This document shows, in pieces, positions 35,544-43,257 of a DNA stretch of 64,000 nt. The translations under genes and the position numbers were made by a program. The notes below the pieces were generated by a model that saw only the letters and a program-made list of their open reading frames with translations, ran no database searches and was not told the origin of the DNA. Within the stretch, counting starts at the first letter, position 1. Each line of letters begins with the position of its first letter. Location of the stretch: assembly GCA_019752045.1 (NCBI GenBank), contig JAIEMP010000007.1, positions 310,001-374,000 on the forward strand. Reading direction: 5' to 3'. This DNA comes from Chitinophagaceae bacterium. Lineage in GTDB: Bacteria; Bacteroidota; Bacteroidia; Chitinophagales; Chitinophagaceae.

Positions 35544-36800
35544 TTACTTGATTAACACTGCAGCTACTGTGTTGTTACTTGTTTCATCAATTAAAACAGC
35601 ACTGCCATTTTCGTTTAACCGATCGTATGGATCGAATACCAATGGTGATGCAGTTTTGATGACAGCTTTTACCACTTCGTTCAATTTTATATTTCCATTC
35701 ACTGTCCCGATAGCTATCGGGATTTGCTGTAAACTGTTTACATCCAATTTATATTCCACATGCTTTACAACAGAACGTACGAGACGGCTGCCATGCAGCA
35801 GATAATATTTGTTACCGGGGATCAATGGTTTCTCATCCATCCAGCAAAGGATTACATCCAGTTCATTGTTAACCTGTGGCAGGTTATCTGATTTTACAAT
35901 TGAATCACCACGACTCACATCAATATCATCGGCCAATTGAATGGTTACACTTTGCGGAGCAAATACTTCATCAACAGATTTACCGCCTACTTCCAAAGTG
36001 CTGATAGTTGTTTCAATACCTGCAGGCAATACAGTTACCTTATCGCCTACTTTGTAAATACCACTTGTTACCTGTCCGGCATAGCCACGATAATCGTGCA
36101 GATCTTCTGTTTGCGGACGAATCACCAACTGTACCTGGAAACGTGCGTCAGTTAAATTAATATCATTATCAATTTCAACAGCTTCAAGGAACTCAAGCAA
36201 TGGTTTGCCTTCGTACCAGGTAATTGTTTCAGATTTATCAACAATGTTATCGCCGTTCAATGCACTGATTGGTATATAAGTGACATCTTTCAATCCCAAT
36301 TGAGTAGCCACTTCAGCATAATCAATCACAATGTTGTTGTACACATCCTGGGAATATTCAACCAGATCCATTTTATTGATTGCAACCACCACATGCTTGA
36401 TCTTAAGCAAAGAAGCAATGATTGAATGACGACGTGTTTGTTCCACCACACCTTGTCTTGCATCAACCAAAATAATAATGAGGTTGGCATTACTTGCACC
36501 GGTGATCATGTTTCTTGTGTACTGCACATGACCGGGAGCATCAGCAATAATGAATTTCCGTTTTGGTGTTGTGAAATAACGATACGCCACATCAATCGTA
36601 ATCCCTTGTTCTCTTTCTGCACGAAGGCCATCAGTTAACAACGCAAGATCAACGGAACCATCAGTGCGGTTCTTGGTTGATTTTTCCAACGCTTCCAGTT
36701 GATCGATGAGGATGTTTTTGCTGTCGTACAACAAACGACCGATCAATGTGCTTTTGCCATCATCTACACTACCTGCGGTTATAAAACGTAATAAGTCCAT
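35544..36800 (-). CDS. cysN: Sulfate adenylyltransferase subunit 1 (GTPase)
   Basis: GTPase subunit of ATP sulfurylase. It couples GTP hydrolysis to APS synthesis by CysD. The 418 residues are EF-Tu-like: P-loop AGSVDDGKSTLIGRLLYDSK (about 8-27), EREQGITIDVAYRYF, DAPGHVQYTRNMITGAS, NKMDLVEYS, then two beta-barrel domains (about 220-418). There is no fused APS kinase (CysC) domain. The C-terminal barrel contains QQIPIAIGTVNG at about 360-371, where a perfect 18-bp palindrome (35705-35722) is read in frame. It begins 331 bases after cysD; a CCCCT/AGGGG repeat lies only about 14 bases before its ATG. Confidence 0.96.
   Translation of the reverse strand: MDLLRFITAGSVDDGKSTLIGRLLYDSKNILIDQLEALEKSTKNRTDGSVDLALLTDGLRAEREQGITIDVAYRYFTTPKRKFIIADAPGHVQYTRNMITGASNANLIIILVDARQGVVEQTRRHSIIASLLKIKHVVVAINKMDLVEYSQDVYNNIVIDYAEVATQLGLKDVTYIPISALNGDNIVDKSETITWYEGKPLLEFLEAVEIDNDINLTDARFQVQLVIRPQTEDLHDYRGYAGQVTSGIYKVGDKVTVLPAGIETTISTLEVGGKSVDEVFAPQSVTIQLADDIDVSRGDSIVKSDNLPQVNNELDVILCWMDEKPLIPGNKYYLLHGSRLVRSVVKHVEYKLDVNSLQQIPIAIGTVNGNIKLNEVVKAVIKTASPLVFDPYDRLNENGSAVLIDETSNNTVAAVLIK
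35705..35722. repeat. Perfect 18-bp palindrome inside cysN
   Basis: TCCCGATAGCTATCGGGA is fully self-complementary. Read in frame on the minus strand it gives PIAIG within the third domain of CysN. Confidence 0.8.
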
Positions 36801-37131: not shown

Positions 37132-38040
37132 TTAAAAATACCCATTCTTCTTCCTGTCTTCCATTGCAGCTTCTGTTACTTTATCATCAATACGTGTTTC
37201 ACCACGTTCGCTGATGCGTGTTGCAATGATCTCTTCAATTACTTCATCTAAGTTTGTTGCGGTTGATTCCACTGCAGCTGTACATGTCATGTCACCAACA
37301 GTACGATAACGAACTCGCTTGGTGATGATCTTATCGTCAACAGTTGTTTGCACATGCTCACTCATTGCTACTAACTGACCTTCATGTTCAATCACTTCAC
37401 GATCGTGTGCGAAATAAATAGATGGCAGATCAATTTTTTCACTGCGGATATAATTCCAGATATCTAATTCTGTCCAGTTGCTGATCGGGAATACACGAAC
37501 ATTTTCACCTTTGTGAATGCGGCCGTTATAAATATTCCACAATTCAGGACGTTGCAGTTTGGGATTCCATTGTCCGAACTCATCACGCACAGAAAAGATG
37601 CGTTCTTTTGCACGTGCTTTTTCTTCATCTCTCCGTGCACCACCGATACATGCATCAAATGCAAATTCTTCAATGGTATCGAGCAATGTATAAGTCTGCA
37701 ACCAGTTGCGGCTTGGGAACTTACCTTTTGGCTCGGTTAAGCTACGTTGTTTAATAGTATCTTCTACCTTACGCACAACGAGTGTAGCACCTACTTCATT
37801 CGCTAACCAATCACGAAATTCCAATGCTTCAGGAAAATTATGTCCGGTATCGATATGTACTAAAGGAAACGGTATTTTGCCGGGAGCAAAAGCCTTTTTT
37901 GCTAAATGAACCATCACAATAGAATCTTTTCCACCGCTGAATAAAAGGGCCGGTTTTTCAAACTGCGCCGCCACCTCACGGAATATCTGAATACTCTCCG
38001 CTTCTAATTGCTTCAAATAATTTAAATGATACTGACTCAT
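37132..38040 (-). CDS. cysD: Sulfate adenylyltransferase subunit 2
   Basis: Adenylates sulfate to APS with ATP; partner of CysN. The 302 residues are the family length. The PP-loop ALLFSGGKDSIVMVHLAKKAF (about 30-50) is followed by VHIDTGHNFPEALEFRDWL, the CIGGARRDEEKARAKERIFS loop, NVRVFPISNWTELDIWNYI and VRYRTVGDMTCTAAVESTA. It is the first gene of the second sulfur operon and has its own promoter (TATATTTG at 38080-38087) and a palindrome just after the predicted transcript start. The operon order cysD-cysN-cobA-cysJ-cysI covers APS formation and sulfite reduction. Confidence 0.97.
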   Translation of the reverse strand: MSQYHLNYLKQLEAESIQIFREVAAQFEKPALLFSGGKDSIVMVHLAKKAFAPGKIPFPLVHIDTGHNFPEALEFRDWLANEVGATLVVRKVEDTIKQRSLTEPKGKFPSRNWLQTYTLLDTIEEFAFDACIGGARRDEEKARAKERIFSVRDEFGQWNPKLQRPELWNIYNGRIHKGENVRVFPISNWTELDIWNYIRSEKIDLPSIYFAHDREVIEHEGQLVAMSEHVQTTVDDKIITKRVRYRTVGDMTCTAAVESTATNLDEVIEEIIATRISERGETRIDDKVTEAAMEDRKKNGYF

Positions 38041-38137: not shown

Positions 38138-38878
38138 TCAGGAATTATTTTCCACACCGGGTTCGGCGTGCACATGCAAGCCACATTCCTTGTTGCTTTT
38201 ATCCTCCCACCACCAACGGCCTGCACGAAAATCTTCGCCGGGACGGATGGCTCTTGTACAGGGAGCGCAACCAATGCTTACAAAGCCTTTATCGTGTAAG
38301 GTATTGTATGGAACATGATTTTCACGAATGAACAGGTTTAATTCTTCCCATGTCCAATGCAGGATGGGATGAAACTTGATGATCTGATTGCCTTCGTCCC
38401 ATTCAAGTTGAGATGTAGATTGGCGATCTGGACTTTGTTCAGCCCTTAACCCCGTGATCCAAACCTGCTTATCTTTTAATGCACGTTTCAATGGCTCTAC
38501 TTTACGAATGCCACAACATTCTTTACGGTTATCTGTTGATTCGTAAAAAGAATTTGGTCCTTTTTCCGTTACAAAAGACTGCAACTTTTCTGCATTTGGA
38601 TAATACGCATGAATGGGTTGATTGTAAGCTTCCAAAGTTGAACGCCAGGTACTGTATGTTTCGCTGAACATACGACCGGTATCGAGTGTAAACACTTCAA
38701 TGGGTAATTTTTCAGAGAAGATCAAATGACTGATTGCCTGATCTTCCAAACCAAAGCTGGTTGAAAAAACGATGTTGCCGTTGAAGCGATCGTTTAACAA
38801 CTGAAGATTTGCTGAAGGATTTTTCTCCTGCAACAAACTTTCCAGTTCAGCTATCTGTTGTTGTAAACTCATGATCAA
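38138..38878 (-). CDS. cysH: Adenylyl-sulfate (APS) reductase, assimilatory
   Basis: Reduces APS to sulfite with thioredoxin. In 246 residues one sees FSTSFGLEDQAISHLI, the CC pair in KECCGIRKVEPLKRAL, the GCAPCTRAI pair and the C-terminal KECGLHVH with the catalytic Cys. The CC..CxxC set ligates a 4Fe-4S cluster and marks the APS-specific, not PAPS-specific, type. This fits the absence of an APS kinase in the cluster. Its start overlaps the hom stop by four bases (ATGA), so it is translated with the methionine operon, while cysD follows with its own promoter. Confidence 0.95.
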   Translation of the reverse strand: MIMSLQQQIAELESLLQEKNPSANLQLLNDRFNGNIVFSTSFGLEDQAISHLIFSEKLPIEVFTLDTGRMFSETYSTWRSTLEAYNQPIHAYYPNAEKLQSFVTEKGPNSFYESTDNRKECCGIRKVEPLKRALKDKQVWITGLRAEQSPDRQSTSQLEWDEGNQIIKFHPILHWTWEELNLFIRENHVPYNTLHDKGFVSIGCAPCTRAIRPGEDFRAGRWWWEDKSNKECGLHVHAEPGVENNS

Positions 38879-40137
38879 TTCACATTTAAACCTGCTAATT
38901 CAAGACTCTTCTTTTTTAACTTACGAACTTCCACATCTTCAATAATGGGTTCAGGCGAAAGAATAAGTGAAGTTCCGTTTTCTCTCCACCAGTTATTTTG
39001 TTTCAGCTCGTTTGCGTGTAATACGCCCACTAAATATTTACGATCACTTTCTGCATGCCATTCTTCAATCCATTCAAACTTATCTTTTGGAATATAATTC
39101 CAATCATCAAAACTCAGGTATACTTTCAGAAAGTAATCGTTGGTGAGTTCATTGGGTTGATGATGATACAGTTTCTTGTACTCATATTTATAGTCATATC
39201 GTAAAGCAGACAGATCACTCAACACAGCAGATGCCGTGGGGAATGAACCGGCACCTTTACCGTAAAAGAACTGCTTATCAGAAAACGAACTTTCTACCAC
39301 TGCTCCGTTGTATTCGTTCTTTACAAAACTCAAATGATCATCGTGCTTAACAAACTGTGGTAATACAAACGCTGCTACTTTGCCGTTTTGCAATTTCTTT
39401 GCCTGTCCTACCAAACGGATCTCGAAATTCTTCTCTCTGCCAACCGTTGCATCTGATCCCTGAATATTTTGAATACCGGTGAACAACACATCATCCGGAT
39501 GCGAAACAATACCGTATGCATGTAATAACAAAATAACCCATTTATTTACTGCATCCCAACCATCTACATCCAATGTAGGATCTGCTTCTGCAAAACCCAA
39601 TTGCTGTGCCTGTAACAATGCCTGTTTGAAATCAAGTTTCTCTTCAAACATTTTTGTGAGAATGTAATTGGTACTGCCGTTTACAATACCACGGATACCA
39701 TGCAGCAAATCATTATCGTAATATTCTTCCAGATTTCGGATCACAGGAATCGAAGCACAAGCAGATGCTTCGTACAAAAATGAAATACCTGTTTCAGTTT
39801 GCAAGCGCAACAGTTCAGGCAAATGCTCTGCGATCATTTTCTTACTTGCGCTTACTACTTCTTTTCCGCTCTTTAATGCGGTAGACACAATGTAAAAAGC
39901 CGGTTCGCTTTCATTGATCACTTCTACGATTACATTTATTTCAGGATCGTTGAGCAACACATCTCTGTCTGTTGTAAATAATTCATCGGGAGCATTACGC
40001 TTCTTATTTGGATTTTTGATACACACTTTTTTAATACGTGCCCGTAACGAAGGAGTCTGCTTTAAAATTTTATACAACCCTTCTCCTACTACTCCAAATC
40101 CAAATAGTCCGATGACCAACTGTTTATCTGATGACAT
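38875..40137 (-). CDS. hom: Homoserine dehydrogenase
   Basis: Reduces aspartate semialdehyde to homoserine, the acceptor skeleton for MetX. The 420 residues carry VIGLFGFGVVGEGLYKIL (NAD site, about 8-25), VSASKKMIAEHLPEL, the GIRGIVNGSTNYILTKM signature (about 147-163), GFAEADPTLDVDGWDA and a C-terminal region with no recognisable ACT domain. No aspartokinase is fused, unlike many Bacteroidota ThrA proteins, so this may be a second, methionine-dedicated copy. It lies two bases after metX and overlaps cysH by four. Confidence 0.94.
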   Translation of the reverse strand: MSSDKQLVIGLFGFGVVGEGLYKILKQTPSLRARIKKVCIKNPNKKRNAPDELFTTDRDVLLNDPEINVIVEVINESEPAFYIVSTALKSGKEVVSASKKMIAEHLPELLRLQTETGISFLYEASACASIPVIRNLEEYYDNDLLHGIRGIVNGSTNYILTKMFEEKLDFKQALLQAQQLGFAEADPTLDVDGWDAVNKWVILLLHAYGIVSHPDDVLFTGIQNIQGSDATVGREKNFEIRLVGQAKKLQNGKVAAFVLPQFVKHDDHLSFVKNEYNGAVVESSFSDKQFFYGKGAGSFPTASAVLSDLSALRYDYKYEYKKLYHHQPNELTNDYFLKVYLSFDDWNYIPKDKFEWIEEWHAESDRKYLVGVLHANELKQNNWWRENGTSLILSPEPIIEDVEVRKLKKKSLELAGLNVN

Positions 40138-40139
40138 GA

Positions 40140-41246
40140 TTAACTGGTTAATTGTTTTTTTAAATCTGTTTTCTGCGACTGCTGTAAAAAATGATTGATG
40201 GCTTTGCTGATCTGATCGTACTCTAATAAAAATCCGTCGTGACCATAAAACGATTCAATACTTTTAAAACTTGCTCCGCTGATGGTATTCGCCAAAAACT
40301 GTTGTTCACTAACGGGGAACAACACATCATTGCTGATACCGATCACCAATGTTTTCGCATTAATTTCTTTTAATGCTCCTTCAATGGAAATACGGCTGCG
40401 GCCCACATTGTGAGAATCCATTCCCTTGCTGAGAAAATAATAACTGAATGCATTAAAACGCTTCACTAATTTATCGCCCTGGTAACGTTGATATGATTCA
40501 CTTTTGAATGACTCCAGCACATCATTACTTTCTTCGATCTGGCTGATGCCATATGCATCATAGTGACGGTATGAAAGCAAGGCAATACTCCTTGCTGCTT
40601 TCAAACCTTCAGTGCCTGCATCCTCTGCTTTATTCTTCCATGTTGAATCGGCTTCGATGGCCAAACGTTGTGATGCATTGAAAGCAATACCCCAAGCTGA
40701 GTGATAGGCATTGGTTGCAATAGGAATAATATGTTCAAACAACTGCGGTTCTTCAATGGCCCACTCCAGTAATTGTTGTCCGCCCATACTGCCACCAATA
40801 CCAATGTATATTTTTTCAATACCTAAAAACTTGCGTAATGGGTCATAAGCACGGATCATATCACGGGTAGTGAACCATGGAAAATCGTGATAGTATGGTT
40901 CATCAGTAAATGGATTATTATCCAACGGACCAATACTTCCATAAGCACTTCCCGGCATGTTTACACATACAATAAAATGTTTTGCAGGATCAAATAACTT
41001 TCCTTCGCCAACCAAGCCACTCCACCATTCTGATGGATCGCTGTTGGCTGTTAATGCATGAAAAATCCAAACGACATTATCTTTTGCATCATTCAATTCG
41101 CCCAGTGTTGTATATGCCAAATGATATTGATTGAGCAAAGCTCCCGACTCCAGTCTGAATGGTTTATTGTATGTAAAGATCGAAGCCTCTCCTTTTGATC
41201 TCCTCTCCGGAAGAGAGGAGAGACCCGACTCATGATTATTACTCAT
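40140..41246 (-). CDS. metX: Homoserine O-acetyltransferase
   Basis: Acetylates homoserine with acetyl-CoA, making the substrate of MetY. An alpha/beta-hydrolase fold of 368 residues: NVVWIFHALTANSDP, the nucleophile elbow GIGGSMGGQQLLEWA (Ser near 150), YGISQIEESND, and ESFYGHDGFLLEYDQI with the catalytic His. The N-terminus has an extra segment (MSNNHESGLSSLPERRSKGEA) encoded by a TCTCCTCTC/GAGAGGAGA palindrome at 41199-41221. No later ATG could serve as start before the conserved fold, so the repeat is part of the coding sequence. It is 72 bases after metY. Confidence 0.95.
   Translation of the reverse strand: MSNNHESGLSSLPERRSKGEASIFTYNKPFRLESGALLNQYHLAYTTLGELNDAKDNVVWIFHALTANSDPSEWWSGLVGEGKLFDPAKHFIVCVNMPGSAYGSIGPLDNNPFTDEPYYHDFPWFTTRDMIRAYDPLRKFLGIEKIYIGIGGSMGGQQLLEWAIEEPQLFEHIIPIATNAYHSAWGIAFNASQRLAIEADSTWKNKAEDAGTEGLKAARSIALLSYRHYDAYGISQIEESNDVLESFKSESYQRYQGDKLVKRFNAFSYYFLSKGMDSHNVGRSRISIEGALKEINAKTLVIGISNDVLFPVSEQQFLANTISGASFKSIESFYGHDGFLLEYDQISKAINHFLQQSQKTDLKKQLTS
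41199..41221 (-). repeat. Palindrome inside the metX 5' coding region
   Basis: TCTCCTCTC (41199-41207) CGGAA GAGAGGAGA (41213-41221) is a perfect 9-bp inverted repeat. It encodes the nonconserved LSSLPERRS part of the N-terminus. Confidence 0.75.
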
Positions 41247-41318: not shown

Positions 41319-42662
<1,344 letters not shown>

Positions 42663-42707: not shown

Positions 42708-42722
42708 CCCTGACAGGCAGGG
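42708..42722. repeat. Short palindrome in the metY leader
   Basis: CCCTG (42708-42712) ACAGG CAGGG (42718-42722). It lies between the leader ORF and the metY start. It could be a dispersed palindrome or the second hairpin of the attenuator. Confidence 0.5.
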
Positions 42723-42735
42723 TCGGAAAAGATAT

Positions 42736-42753
42736 GTATGCCTTACGGCATAC
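42736..42753 (-). promoter_or_regulatory. Hairpin overlapping the end of the Cys-rich leader ORF
   Basis: On the minus strand GTATGCC-GTAA-GGCATAC forms a 7-bp stem with the UAA stop codon in the loop and part of the last Cys codon in the 5' arm. ATATCTTTTCC follows, a poor U-tract. The geometry suits ribosome-controlled folding. Confidence 0.6.
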
Positions 42754-42820
42754 AACAAATACAACAACACTGCATAGCTGCAGTAAAACTAATTCGGTTG
42801 TTGATGCTGTAATTGTTCAT
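42743..42820 (-). CDS. Cysteine-rich leader peptide of metY (candidate)
   Basis: A 25-codon frame starting at ATG 42820 with the product MNNYSINNRISFTAAM followed by QCCCICCMP. Five UGU codons lie at 42752-42757 and 42761-42769, just before the stop. An internal ATG at 42775 would give a ten-residue version. A consensus promoter (42838-42869) places the RNA start about 14 bases before ATG 42820. The stop codon lies in the loop of a hairpin. The arrangement is that of a transcription or translation attenuator in which ribosomes slow at Cys codons when charged tRNA-Cys is scarce, changing folding before metY. Comparable Cys-repeat upstream ORFs are known in actinobacteria; a Bacteroidota case would be new to me. 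Translation is not proven. Confidence 0.6.
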   Translation of the reverse strand: MNNYSINNRISFTAAMQCCCICCMP

Positions 42821-42837
42821 GTAGTATAAATACCCGA

Positions 42838-42869
42838 CAAAAGTAGTCGGCTTTTCTGATCTATTCAAA
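42838..42869 (-). promoter_or_regulatory. Second metY promoter, after the riboswitch terminator
   Basis: TTTG (42866-42869), 20-base spacer, TACTTTTG (42838-42845), a perfect -7 box. It would start transcription near 42834, downstream of the SAM riboswitch and its terminator, and would bypass SAM control. Confidence 0.6.
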
Positions 42870-43021
42870 AAAGAATTTGCAAAAGTTTTGCCAATGCTTG
42901 TAATAACAACTGTTTGTTTCATCTGATTTGCTTTCATTTTTTGATGACTGCACTTTTGATCCTTATCAAAAAAGAATATGAATCGAATGTTTTCTTGATG
43001 AACAAACCGGTTCAAAACAAA

Positions 43022-43052
43022 AAAGCTCATCTGATAAAATCAGATGAGCTTT
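43022..43052 (-). terminator. Riboswitch expression-platform terminator
   Basis: On the minus strand AAAGCTCATCTGA pairs perfectly over 13 bp with TCAGATGAGCTTT (arms 43040-43052 and 43022-43034, five-base loop), followed by TTTTTTG. It lies 36 bases after the SAM-I aptamer. Confidence 0.9.
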
Positions 43053-43224: not shown

Positions 43225-43257
43225 CAAAATTAGGAGCAAATCAATCAAACAACCAAA
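43225..43257 (-). promoter_or_regulatory. Promoter of the riboswitch transcript
   Basis: TTTG (43254-43257), 21-base spacer, TAATTTTG (43225-43232), a perfect -7 box. The predicted start near 43221 is about 15 bases before the aptamer P1 stem. Confidence 0.6.

Follow-up and report, generated by a model that had tools for sequence, protein, structure and literature searches.

Amino-acid attenuation is best known from Proteobacteria and Actinobacteria. In classical attenuators of the trp, his and leu type, as they are commonly understood, a short frame with codons of the end product stands right before the biosynthetic operon. For mycobacteria, leaderless and cysteine-responsive poly-Cys frames were reportedly described by Canestrari in 2020, going by the title of that work. 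The cys operons of actinobacteria have leader peptides with a run of Cys, and the available part of the report gives them no terminators (Seliverstov 2005, PMC1262725). A first-pass annotation of the DNA studied here, made from its letters alone, had named actinobacteria as the group from which Cys-repeat leaders are known. This was incomplete, since uORFC-8-2 before cysS in Rhodobacterales is also on record: its Cys codons lie in a first stem that is followed by a terminator stem, and ribosome-mediated attenuation is predicted for it, according to the excerpt available (PMC8632094). In Clostridium acetobutylicum the ubiGmccBA operon is controlled by a Cys T-box and an S-box, i.e. RNA elements acting on one sulfur operon read Cys-tRNA and SAM; in the text available the S-box drives an antisense RNA (PMC2940859).

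For the phylum of interest the available passages are less specific. The Bacteroid-trp motif (RF01692) is given as a cis-regulatory leader of Bacteroidetes (PMC2864571), leader peptides are mentioned in general terms for Flavobacterium psychrophilum (PMC9723704) and Bacteroides thetaiotaomicron (PMC7366714), and according to the accessible part of a 2013 survey the amino-acid attenuators then in Rfam were only those for His, Leu, Thr and Trp (PMC3766115). Among the literature matches listed, which covered parts of papers, few of them from subscription journals and none of them preprints, there was no Cys leader from Bacteroidota.

The locus described here lies on the minus strand of a 64,000-nucleotide stretch of a Chitinophagaceae genome, and this whole stretch is referred to as the window. 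The first-pass annotation had placed metY-metX-hom-cysH downstream of a Cys-rich frame. These genes were found, namely metY for O-acetylhomoserine sulfhydrylase (41319-42653; TIGR01326, E 3.7e-207), a metX-like homoserine O-acetyltransferase gene (40140-41246; TIGR01392, 323 bits and thus under the cut-off of 500), the homoserine dehydrogenase gene (38875-40137; NF004976, above cut-off) and cysH for (P)APS reductase (38138-38878; NF002537, above cut-off), and the operon runs on into cysD (37132-38040; TIGR02039, above cut-off) and cysN (35544-36800; TIGR02034, above cut-off). The annotation overlooked a SAM-I riboswitch, its promoter-like site and its terminator just upstream of the frame. The aptamer (43208-43086) scores 78 bits (E 1.3e-16) against a gathering score of 44.4, so that this element, and it only, belongs to RF00162; it is the sole SAM-I match of the genome. 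It is preceded by a promoter-like site P1, TTTG-N21-TAATTTTG (43225-43257), which matches the Bacteroidota promoter consensus and by which the start of the transcript is predicted. Behind the aptamer an intrinsic terminator with a 13-bp stem and U6 can be read from the sequence (43019-43052). SAM-I is the only Rfam family with a match above its gathering score in the window, and the Bacteroid-trp motif RF01692, a trp leader, is among those that stay below theirs. Since the riboswitch with its own terminator lies upstream of the Cys frame, the metY-metX-hom-cysH-cysD-cysN operon has two leaders in series.

The second leader starts with a promoter P2, TTTG-N20-TACTTTTG, at 42869-42838, where the first-pass annotation had put it; TTTG is at 42869-42866, the spacer has 20 bases and TACTTTTG is at 42845-42838. 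The promoter consensus alone places the transcript start near 42834, about 14 nt before the ATG of the leader frame, in agreement with the earlier estimate, and the P2 RNA is thus probably nearly leaderless, to judge by its sequence. The frame of 25 codons and a stop, MNNYSINNRISFTAAMQCCCICCMP, runs from its ATG (42820-42818) to a TAA (42745-42743), i.e. over 42820-42743. Its peptide ends in QCCCICCMP and its Cys codon run, TGT TGT TGT ATT TGT TGT, occupies 42769-42752; this frame with its five UGU codons had been described correctly, as had the 7-bp hairpin with UAA in its loop. The latter, hairpin 1, reads GTATGCC-GTAA-GGCATAC (42753-42736), has 8 bp if the pair 42754:42735 is counted (42735-42754) and has a GNRA-type loop that holds the stop codon; it is seen in the sequence, in the fold and in relatives. 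Its palindrome TATGCCNTANGGCATA occurs at a single place in the whole genome, and a dispersed repeat was therefore ruled out. Hairpin 2, CCCTG-cctgt-CAGGG (42708-42722; from sequence and fold), has no U-run behind it. In the RNA the order is thus P1, SAM-I, terminator, P2, leader frame, hairpin 1, hairpin 2 and metY from 42653. A longer frame of 95 residues (42743-43030) is in phase with the leader and spans the riboswitch terminator and P2, and a gene finder might call it; we rejected it as a gene, as it overlaps the riboswitch terminator and its best Pfam match has an E value of 0.17.

The conservation of this arrangement was investigated in two sets of loci. The first consists of 120 SAM-I loci pooled from family and genus samples, which were sorted by the first downstream homolog: 36 have metY (at least 65% identity), 55 have a paralog (lower identity, mostly 31-38%) and 29 have no homolog. 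A Cys frame, i.e. at least four Cys in ten residues, stands ahead of metY in 25 of the 36 loci and ahead of the paralog in none of the 55. The loss of the Cys codons in relatives had been named beforehand as an observation that would speak against the Cys leader; they are kept. By sample, the frame is present in 12 of 13 metY leaders in the genus and in 13 of 23 outside it, and 11 of the 36 metY leaders behind SAM-I are without one. SAM-I itself is found in 94 of 117 family genomes and, within the genus of the window, in 13 of 14, and most of the 36 metY leaders have a terminator-like element behind it, as judged by eye. The frames of relatives typically end in CCCICCMP, CCCCICCMP, CICCMCCMP, CCRCICCMP, CCISCCCCMP, CCCCCCMPFGA or CCICCCMPQGINI. 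Among the 25 frames derived from riboswitch loci, 21 keep ATGCC...GGCAT at the frame end, three keep the hairpin through other pairs (L003, L012, L077) and that of L044 is weak; a stop shifted past the stem is seen in L004, L006 and L066 (all by eye). The expected joint conservation of frame and hairpin holds to this extent, with the stop sometimes beyond the stem.

The second set came from a scan of a species-genome collection with the pattern TGYTGYATGCCNYANGGCAT, i.e. CCMP and the hairpin with no gene required. Such a scan presupposes CCMP and the hairpin, whose conservation among these loci is by construction, and it therefore tests position and gene and not the hairpin. It gave 108 stretches; 55 of them are followed, 76-118 nt downstream, by a metY match with 69-96% identity, three further ones with a Cys frame (L131, L148, L178) end at the edge of the fetched DNA, and in the remaining 50 no metY match was seen, a few of these having extra Cys (L130, L208). 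Of the 55, 36 were scanned for SAM-I, which was above its gathering score in 27 and was not in nine, so that the Cys module is seemingly independent of SAM-I. Merging identical leaders reduced 92 to 78; for structure comparisons 63 of the 78 had the ATGCC...GGC hairpin, from which L103, L188 (giving 61) and, for its length, one more (giving 60) were dropped. Tests outside the genus leave out the genus members, the window included, and comprise 50, 49 or 46 leaders depending on the test. The sequences are related, and as those of a clade share descent the counts are not independent events.

Several leaders deserve separate mention. L103 (G086) is a metY leader with a promoter-like sequence and the hairpin, whose frame is shifted and has lost most of its Cys codons, and L112 (G048) has a promoter-like sequence, the hairpin and two Cys left; from their sequences, a decay of the Cys module is possible in both. 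In L010, L021, L022, L029, L046 and L083 metY follows close behind the SAM-I terminator with neither Cys frame nor hairpin 1, i.e. the block is absent as a whole and the module can apparently be gained or lost as a unit. DUF805b RNA motifs (RF02914) occur on three of the metY-leader stretches (L165:7650-7682, L127:5175-5207, L140:6935-6967) and tRNA genes on the stretches around the metY leaders L124, L137 and L156.

The coding content of the frames is conspicuous. In 46 frames from outside the genus for which a promoter could be placed, codons 3-12 before Met-Pro comprise 85 TGT, 46 TGC and one TGG; the last two codons were left out of this count, as the search pattern fixes them in 37 frames. 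The nine of these frames that were not found by the pattern have 19 TGT, 12 TGC and no TGG. When the last two codons and the leader of the window are included (47 frames), the counts are 170 TGT, 58 TGC and one TGG, against 28 and 13 for TGN with any third base in the remaining reading frames. TGA does not enter these counts because the frames had to be open. In other words, the third base alternates between both Cys codons, the synonymous change that had been expected in relatives, and the Cys residues of the peptide are what is kept. Chance does not account for a Cys frame that comes back in relatives with such synonymous changes, nor for the position of 55 of the 108 pattern stretches before metY. 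The length is roughly kept as well: 47 of 57 frames have 23-27 codons, 23 have 25 and the range is 14-29. Outside the genus the N-terminal part of the peptide varies and it is chiefly the Cys run that is conserved. Sites like P2 lie directly upstream of the leader frame in relatives. The ATG follows the -7 element by 7-25 nt (median 14; 17 nt in the window) in 57 of 61 leaders, a placement that demanded an ATG within 40 nt and that rests on predicted start sites; the other four, L049, L129, L165 and L174, have no placed promoter.

The RNA of the P2 leader has a further feature that had been overlooked, as the Cys codons and the beginning of their own frame can pair. In the predicted fold of the window, region A at the frame start (42816-42805) pairs with region B in the Cys codons (42766-42755), beside hairpin 1; an inner hairpin within this A:B stem (42769-42784) comes from fold prediction only. 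The whole leader folds with a z of -2.2, and 3 of 200 shuffles are as good. A stem like A:B was seen by eye in all 15 folds inspected (the window and 14 relatives). In 61 leaders the A:B duplex has -13.8 kcal/mol with its own partner and -12.3 kcal/mol with swapped partners, an interaction of -1.52 with a permutation sd of 0.31, and none of 20,000 permutations is as low. The 50 leaders from outside the genus give -1.50. Shuffling region A at constant composition leaves an interaction of -0.23 +/- 0.33 (12 shuffles), against -1.86 for the unshuffled region used in that test. Among 45 region pairs compared in 49 non-genus leaders A:B is the strongest (z -3.9), with an overlapping pair at -3.4 and the next one at -2.5. 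By these sequence statistics the A:B stem is co-evolving as RNA.

Behind hairpin 1 the composition follows a common course: a stretch with less than 4% G and some 42% T is succeeded by blocks rich in C, G, C and T, in this order (51 leaders, that of the window among them). A second hairpin in this region co-evolves according to a fold-swap test in 50 non-genus leaders, in which eight of nine test windows have z from -2.9 to -5.8 and a broad one -1.2; control windows gave +1.6 and -1.6 and the genus alone -1.4 and -2.3. A second-hairpin stem of -2 kcal/mol or better is present in 35 of the 50. The folding of the post-hairpin region barely beats that of shuffles (mean z -0.39, 13 of 63 below -1), and its tails, with 4.9 T in 10 at a background of 0.43, are hardly T-enriched. 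Behind hairpin 2 neither the window nor its genus has a U-run, and hairpin 1 has a U-rich tail only, so that no textbook terminator is visible in the genus. Intrinsic termination signals are visible only in some relatives of the family: L066, L160 and L006 have terminator-like second hairpins. An overlapping antiterminator option exists in 26 of 35 family leaders, but an independent antiterminator is no more than suggested by the joint test (p 0.07) and was not adopted. Two further pairings were rejected. The second arm of hairpin 1 does not co-evolve with the downstream hairpin, and the Cys codons do not appear to mask the metY start, as their pairing with it is no stronger than in frame-less metY or other genes (-8.6, -8.9, -9.2). 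The RNA 5' end and the segment after hairpin 1 give z -2.2 (p 0.02, uncorrected), which is a lead only.

The search was extended to metY genes in 60 genomes of the order and 148 of the phylum, among the matches listed. We examined 100 upstream regions of metY at 60% identity or more, 11 from the order and 89 from the phylum search; some few matches at 64% or above in the lists are not among them. At least four Cys in eight residues occur in 23 of the 100 regions, while the complementary strand, taken as a control, gives 2 and the reversed sequence 5; for at least three the numbers are 53 versus 28 and 29, for at least five 8 versus 1 and 4. Without any picking, the stop is followed within 90 nt by a perfect-stem terminator in 15 of the 23 loci with at least four Cys, compared to 53 of 500 random pieces, and the loci with at least three Cys have one in 28 of 53, versus 1 of 28 and 1 of 29 in the controls. 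Visual selection from these 53 loci gave 30 candidates for a terminator, several of them nearly identical and all except L268 from outside the family: 23 have a perfect-stem intrinsic terminator after the stop, where 0.8 are expected from shuffles, and none was found in L268 and six loci of the same class. An antiterminator segment of at least 7 bp against the first arm of the terminator is present in 19 of the 23 (1.5 expected from shuffles; at 5 bp or more, 21 versus 10.2), and it lies at or near the frame end. In L242 the segment GAAAGGC after the stop faces a AAUGCCUUUC...GAAAGGCAUU-UUUU terminator, in L287 and L289 AAGGGUUUU or GAAGGGCUU faces AAAGCCC...GGGCUUU-UUU, and on sequence grounds these three leaders look like textbook attenuators. 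A segment ACAACAACACAACAA right before the terminator of L241 is complementary to the Cys codons UUGUUGUUGUUGU upstream of it, like the textbook region 1:2 pair.

SAM-I is present in 14 of 20 of these phylum loci that were examined for it. It precedes the Cys frame in loci of the same class, e.g. L269 and L278, and follows it in a family from outside the class (L287, L289, L294, L310), where the order is Cys leader, its terminator, riboswitch and metY; in L241, L242, L243 and L252 a Cys leader was found and SAM-I was not. The leaders of L287, L289, L291, L294, L298, L310 and L323 begin with sequences like MK[FL]..Q[YN] and have Met codons that alternate with Cys codons (MCMC), and might thus gauge methionyl-tRNA besides Cys-tRNA.

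From the recurrence of the frame, the selection on its Cys coding, the promoter, the hairpins, the co-evolved A:B stem and the link to metY, as they appear in the sequences, we propose that the leader is a Cys-tRNA-responsive, ribosome-sensing leader-peptide attenuator of the metY operon, with a probability of a little under 0.8. P2 would yield an RNA with the leader frame near its 5' end, and a ribosome would translate this frame. If Cys-tRNA is scarce, the ribosome would wait on the Cys codons, block the A:B stem and hold hairpin 1 open; with its usual footprint it would, on the last Cys codons, cover the first arm of this hairpin. Transcription would then proceed into metY-metX-hom-cysH-cysD-cysN. 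With ample Cys-tRNA the ribosome would complete the frame at the stop codon in the loop of hairpin 1, whereupon the RNA would adopt an off state and RNA polymerase would terminate before metY. Which step terminates is least certain for the genus of the window, and termination as the output is suggested by analogy with other lineages. SAM-I would independently halt P1 transcripts at high SAM. The riboswitch and the Cys leader together would give the operon two inputs, SAM and cysteine; as P2 is downstream of the riboswitch terminator, P2 RNA would be under cysteine control at any SAM level and P1 RNA would have to pass both.

The Cys frames directly before intrinsic terminators elsewhere in the phylum favour the attenuator reading, and the first-pass proposal of an attenuator or translational switch for charged tRNA-Cys gains from them, even though the window has no clear terminator; in general, its Cys-leader interpretation is supported by the sequence comparisons. 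A different output has nevertheless to be weighed for the clade of the window, in which the position of the ribosome on the Cys leader would set Rho access, mRNA stability or metY translation with no intrinsic termination, a mode that has been suggested for the Cys leaders of actinobacteria. Such an output would fit a genus that lacks the U-run, a stretch between hairpin 1 and metY that is G-poor apart from hairpin 2, and a layout like that of the terminator-less actinobacterial Cys leaders as given in the available part of Seliverstov 2005 (PMC1262725). Given the terminator-like second hairpins of three family relatives, the perfect-stem terminators in 23 of 30 candidates elsewhere and a pairing between Cys codons and metY start that does not exceed that of comparison genes, we consider it rather unlikely. 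Nonetheless, the read-out in the family may differ from the termination that is probably usual in the phylum.

Two other explanations dispense with attenuation. The 25-residue peptide could itself be active, e.g. as a small Cys-rich binder of metals or thiols, and the RNA features could be incidental. The Cys are indeed conserved as residues, but chiefly the Cys run is kept while the N-terminal part varies outside the genus, the frame start and the Cys codons co-vary at the RNA level, and neither Pfam nor NCBIfam gave a match to the peptide up to E 1, which makes an active peptide very improbable. It could also be supposed that SAM-I is the sole regulator of metY and that the Cys frame is due to chance or has decayed, given that the riboswitch is strong and widespread in the family and that 11 of 36 metY leaders have no frame. 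The TGT/TGC codon pattern, the 25 of 36 versus 0 of 55 loci, and the frames that exist without SAM-I above its gathering score (nine of 36 pattern loci, and L241, L242, L243 and L252) leave next to no room for this.

Compared with the described systems, the proposed attenuator resembles the classical ones in that, by sequence, clustered end-product codons lie in a short frame directly upstream of the operon, and in the predicted terminator and competing antiterminator behind many Bacteroidota metY Cys frames. The family of the window differs from them in the stop that is usually inside the hairpin, in the probably nearly leaderless frame with its own promoter, in the Cys codons that pair with the start of their own frame and in the SAM-I that is often upstream; the genus differs also in having no clear U-tailed terminator. 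With the actinobacterial Cys leaders, as far as the source excerpts go, it shares the Cys run near the stop, the sulfur genes downstream and the want of an obvious terminator, whereas the phylum, metY, the conserved stop-loop hairpin, the co-evolved start:Cys-codon stem and the tandem SAM-I set it apart. The alphaproteobacterial uORFC-8-2 has two tandem Cys codons before a tRNA-synthetase gene and, in the excerpt available, no riboswitch is mentioned (PMC8632094), while the window has five Cys codons and metY. In the ubiGmccBA system the Cys sensor is a T-box (PMC2940859), whereas in the window both elements stand ahead of the operon, on its own strand, and the predicted Cys sensor is a translated frame. 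In other words, this is a known kind of leader that is apparently new to the phylum, in a new tandem arrangement with SAM-I, which may lie before or behind it.

A broader view can be put forward tentatively, namely that homocysteine formation and sulfate assimilation are under a phylum-wide modular two-signal control, with a Cys-tRNA leader and SAM-I in either order before metY. The Cys module of Chitinophagaceae, with its own promoter, would then have traded the textbook terminator for a stop-in-loop hairpin and a start:Cys-codon stem and would be an undescribed ribosome-position switch. A conserved Cys leader before metY, often with SAM-I, would show Bacteroidota balancing cysteine versus methionine by ribosome-mediated attenuation. 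Bacteroidota rarely use Shine-Dalgarno sequences, and the Cys leader would be a compact testbed for transcription-translation coupling in such a phylum. Moreover, these leaders would add short genes of a kind that gene finders tend to overlook.
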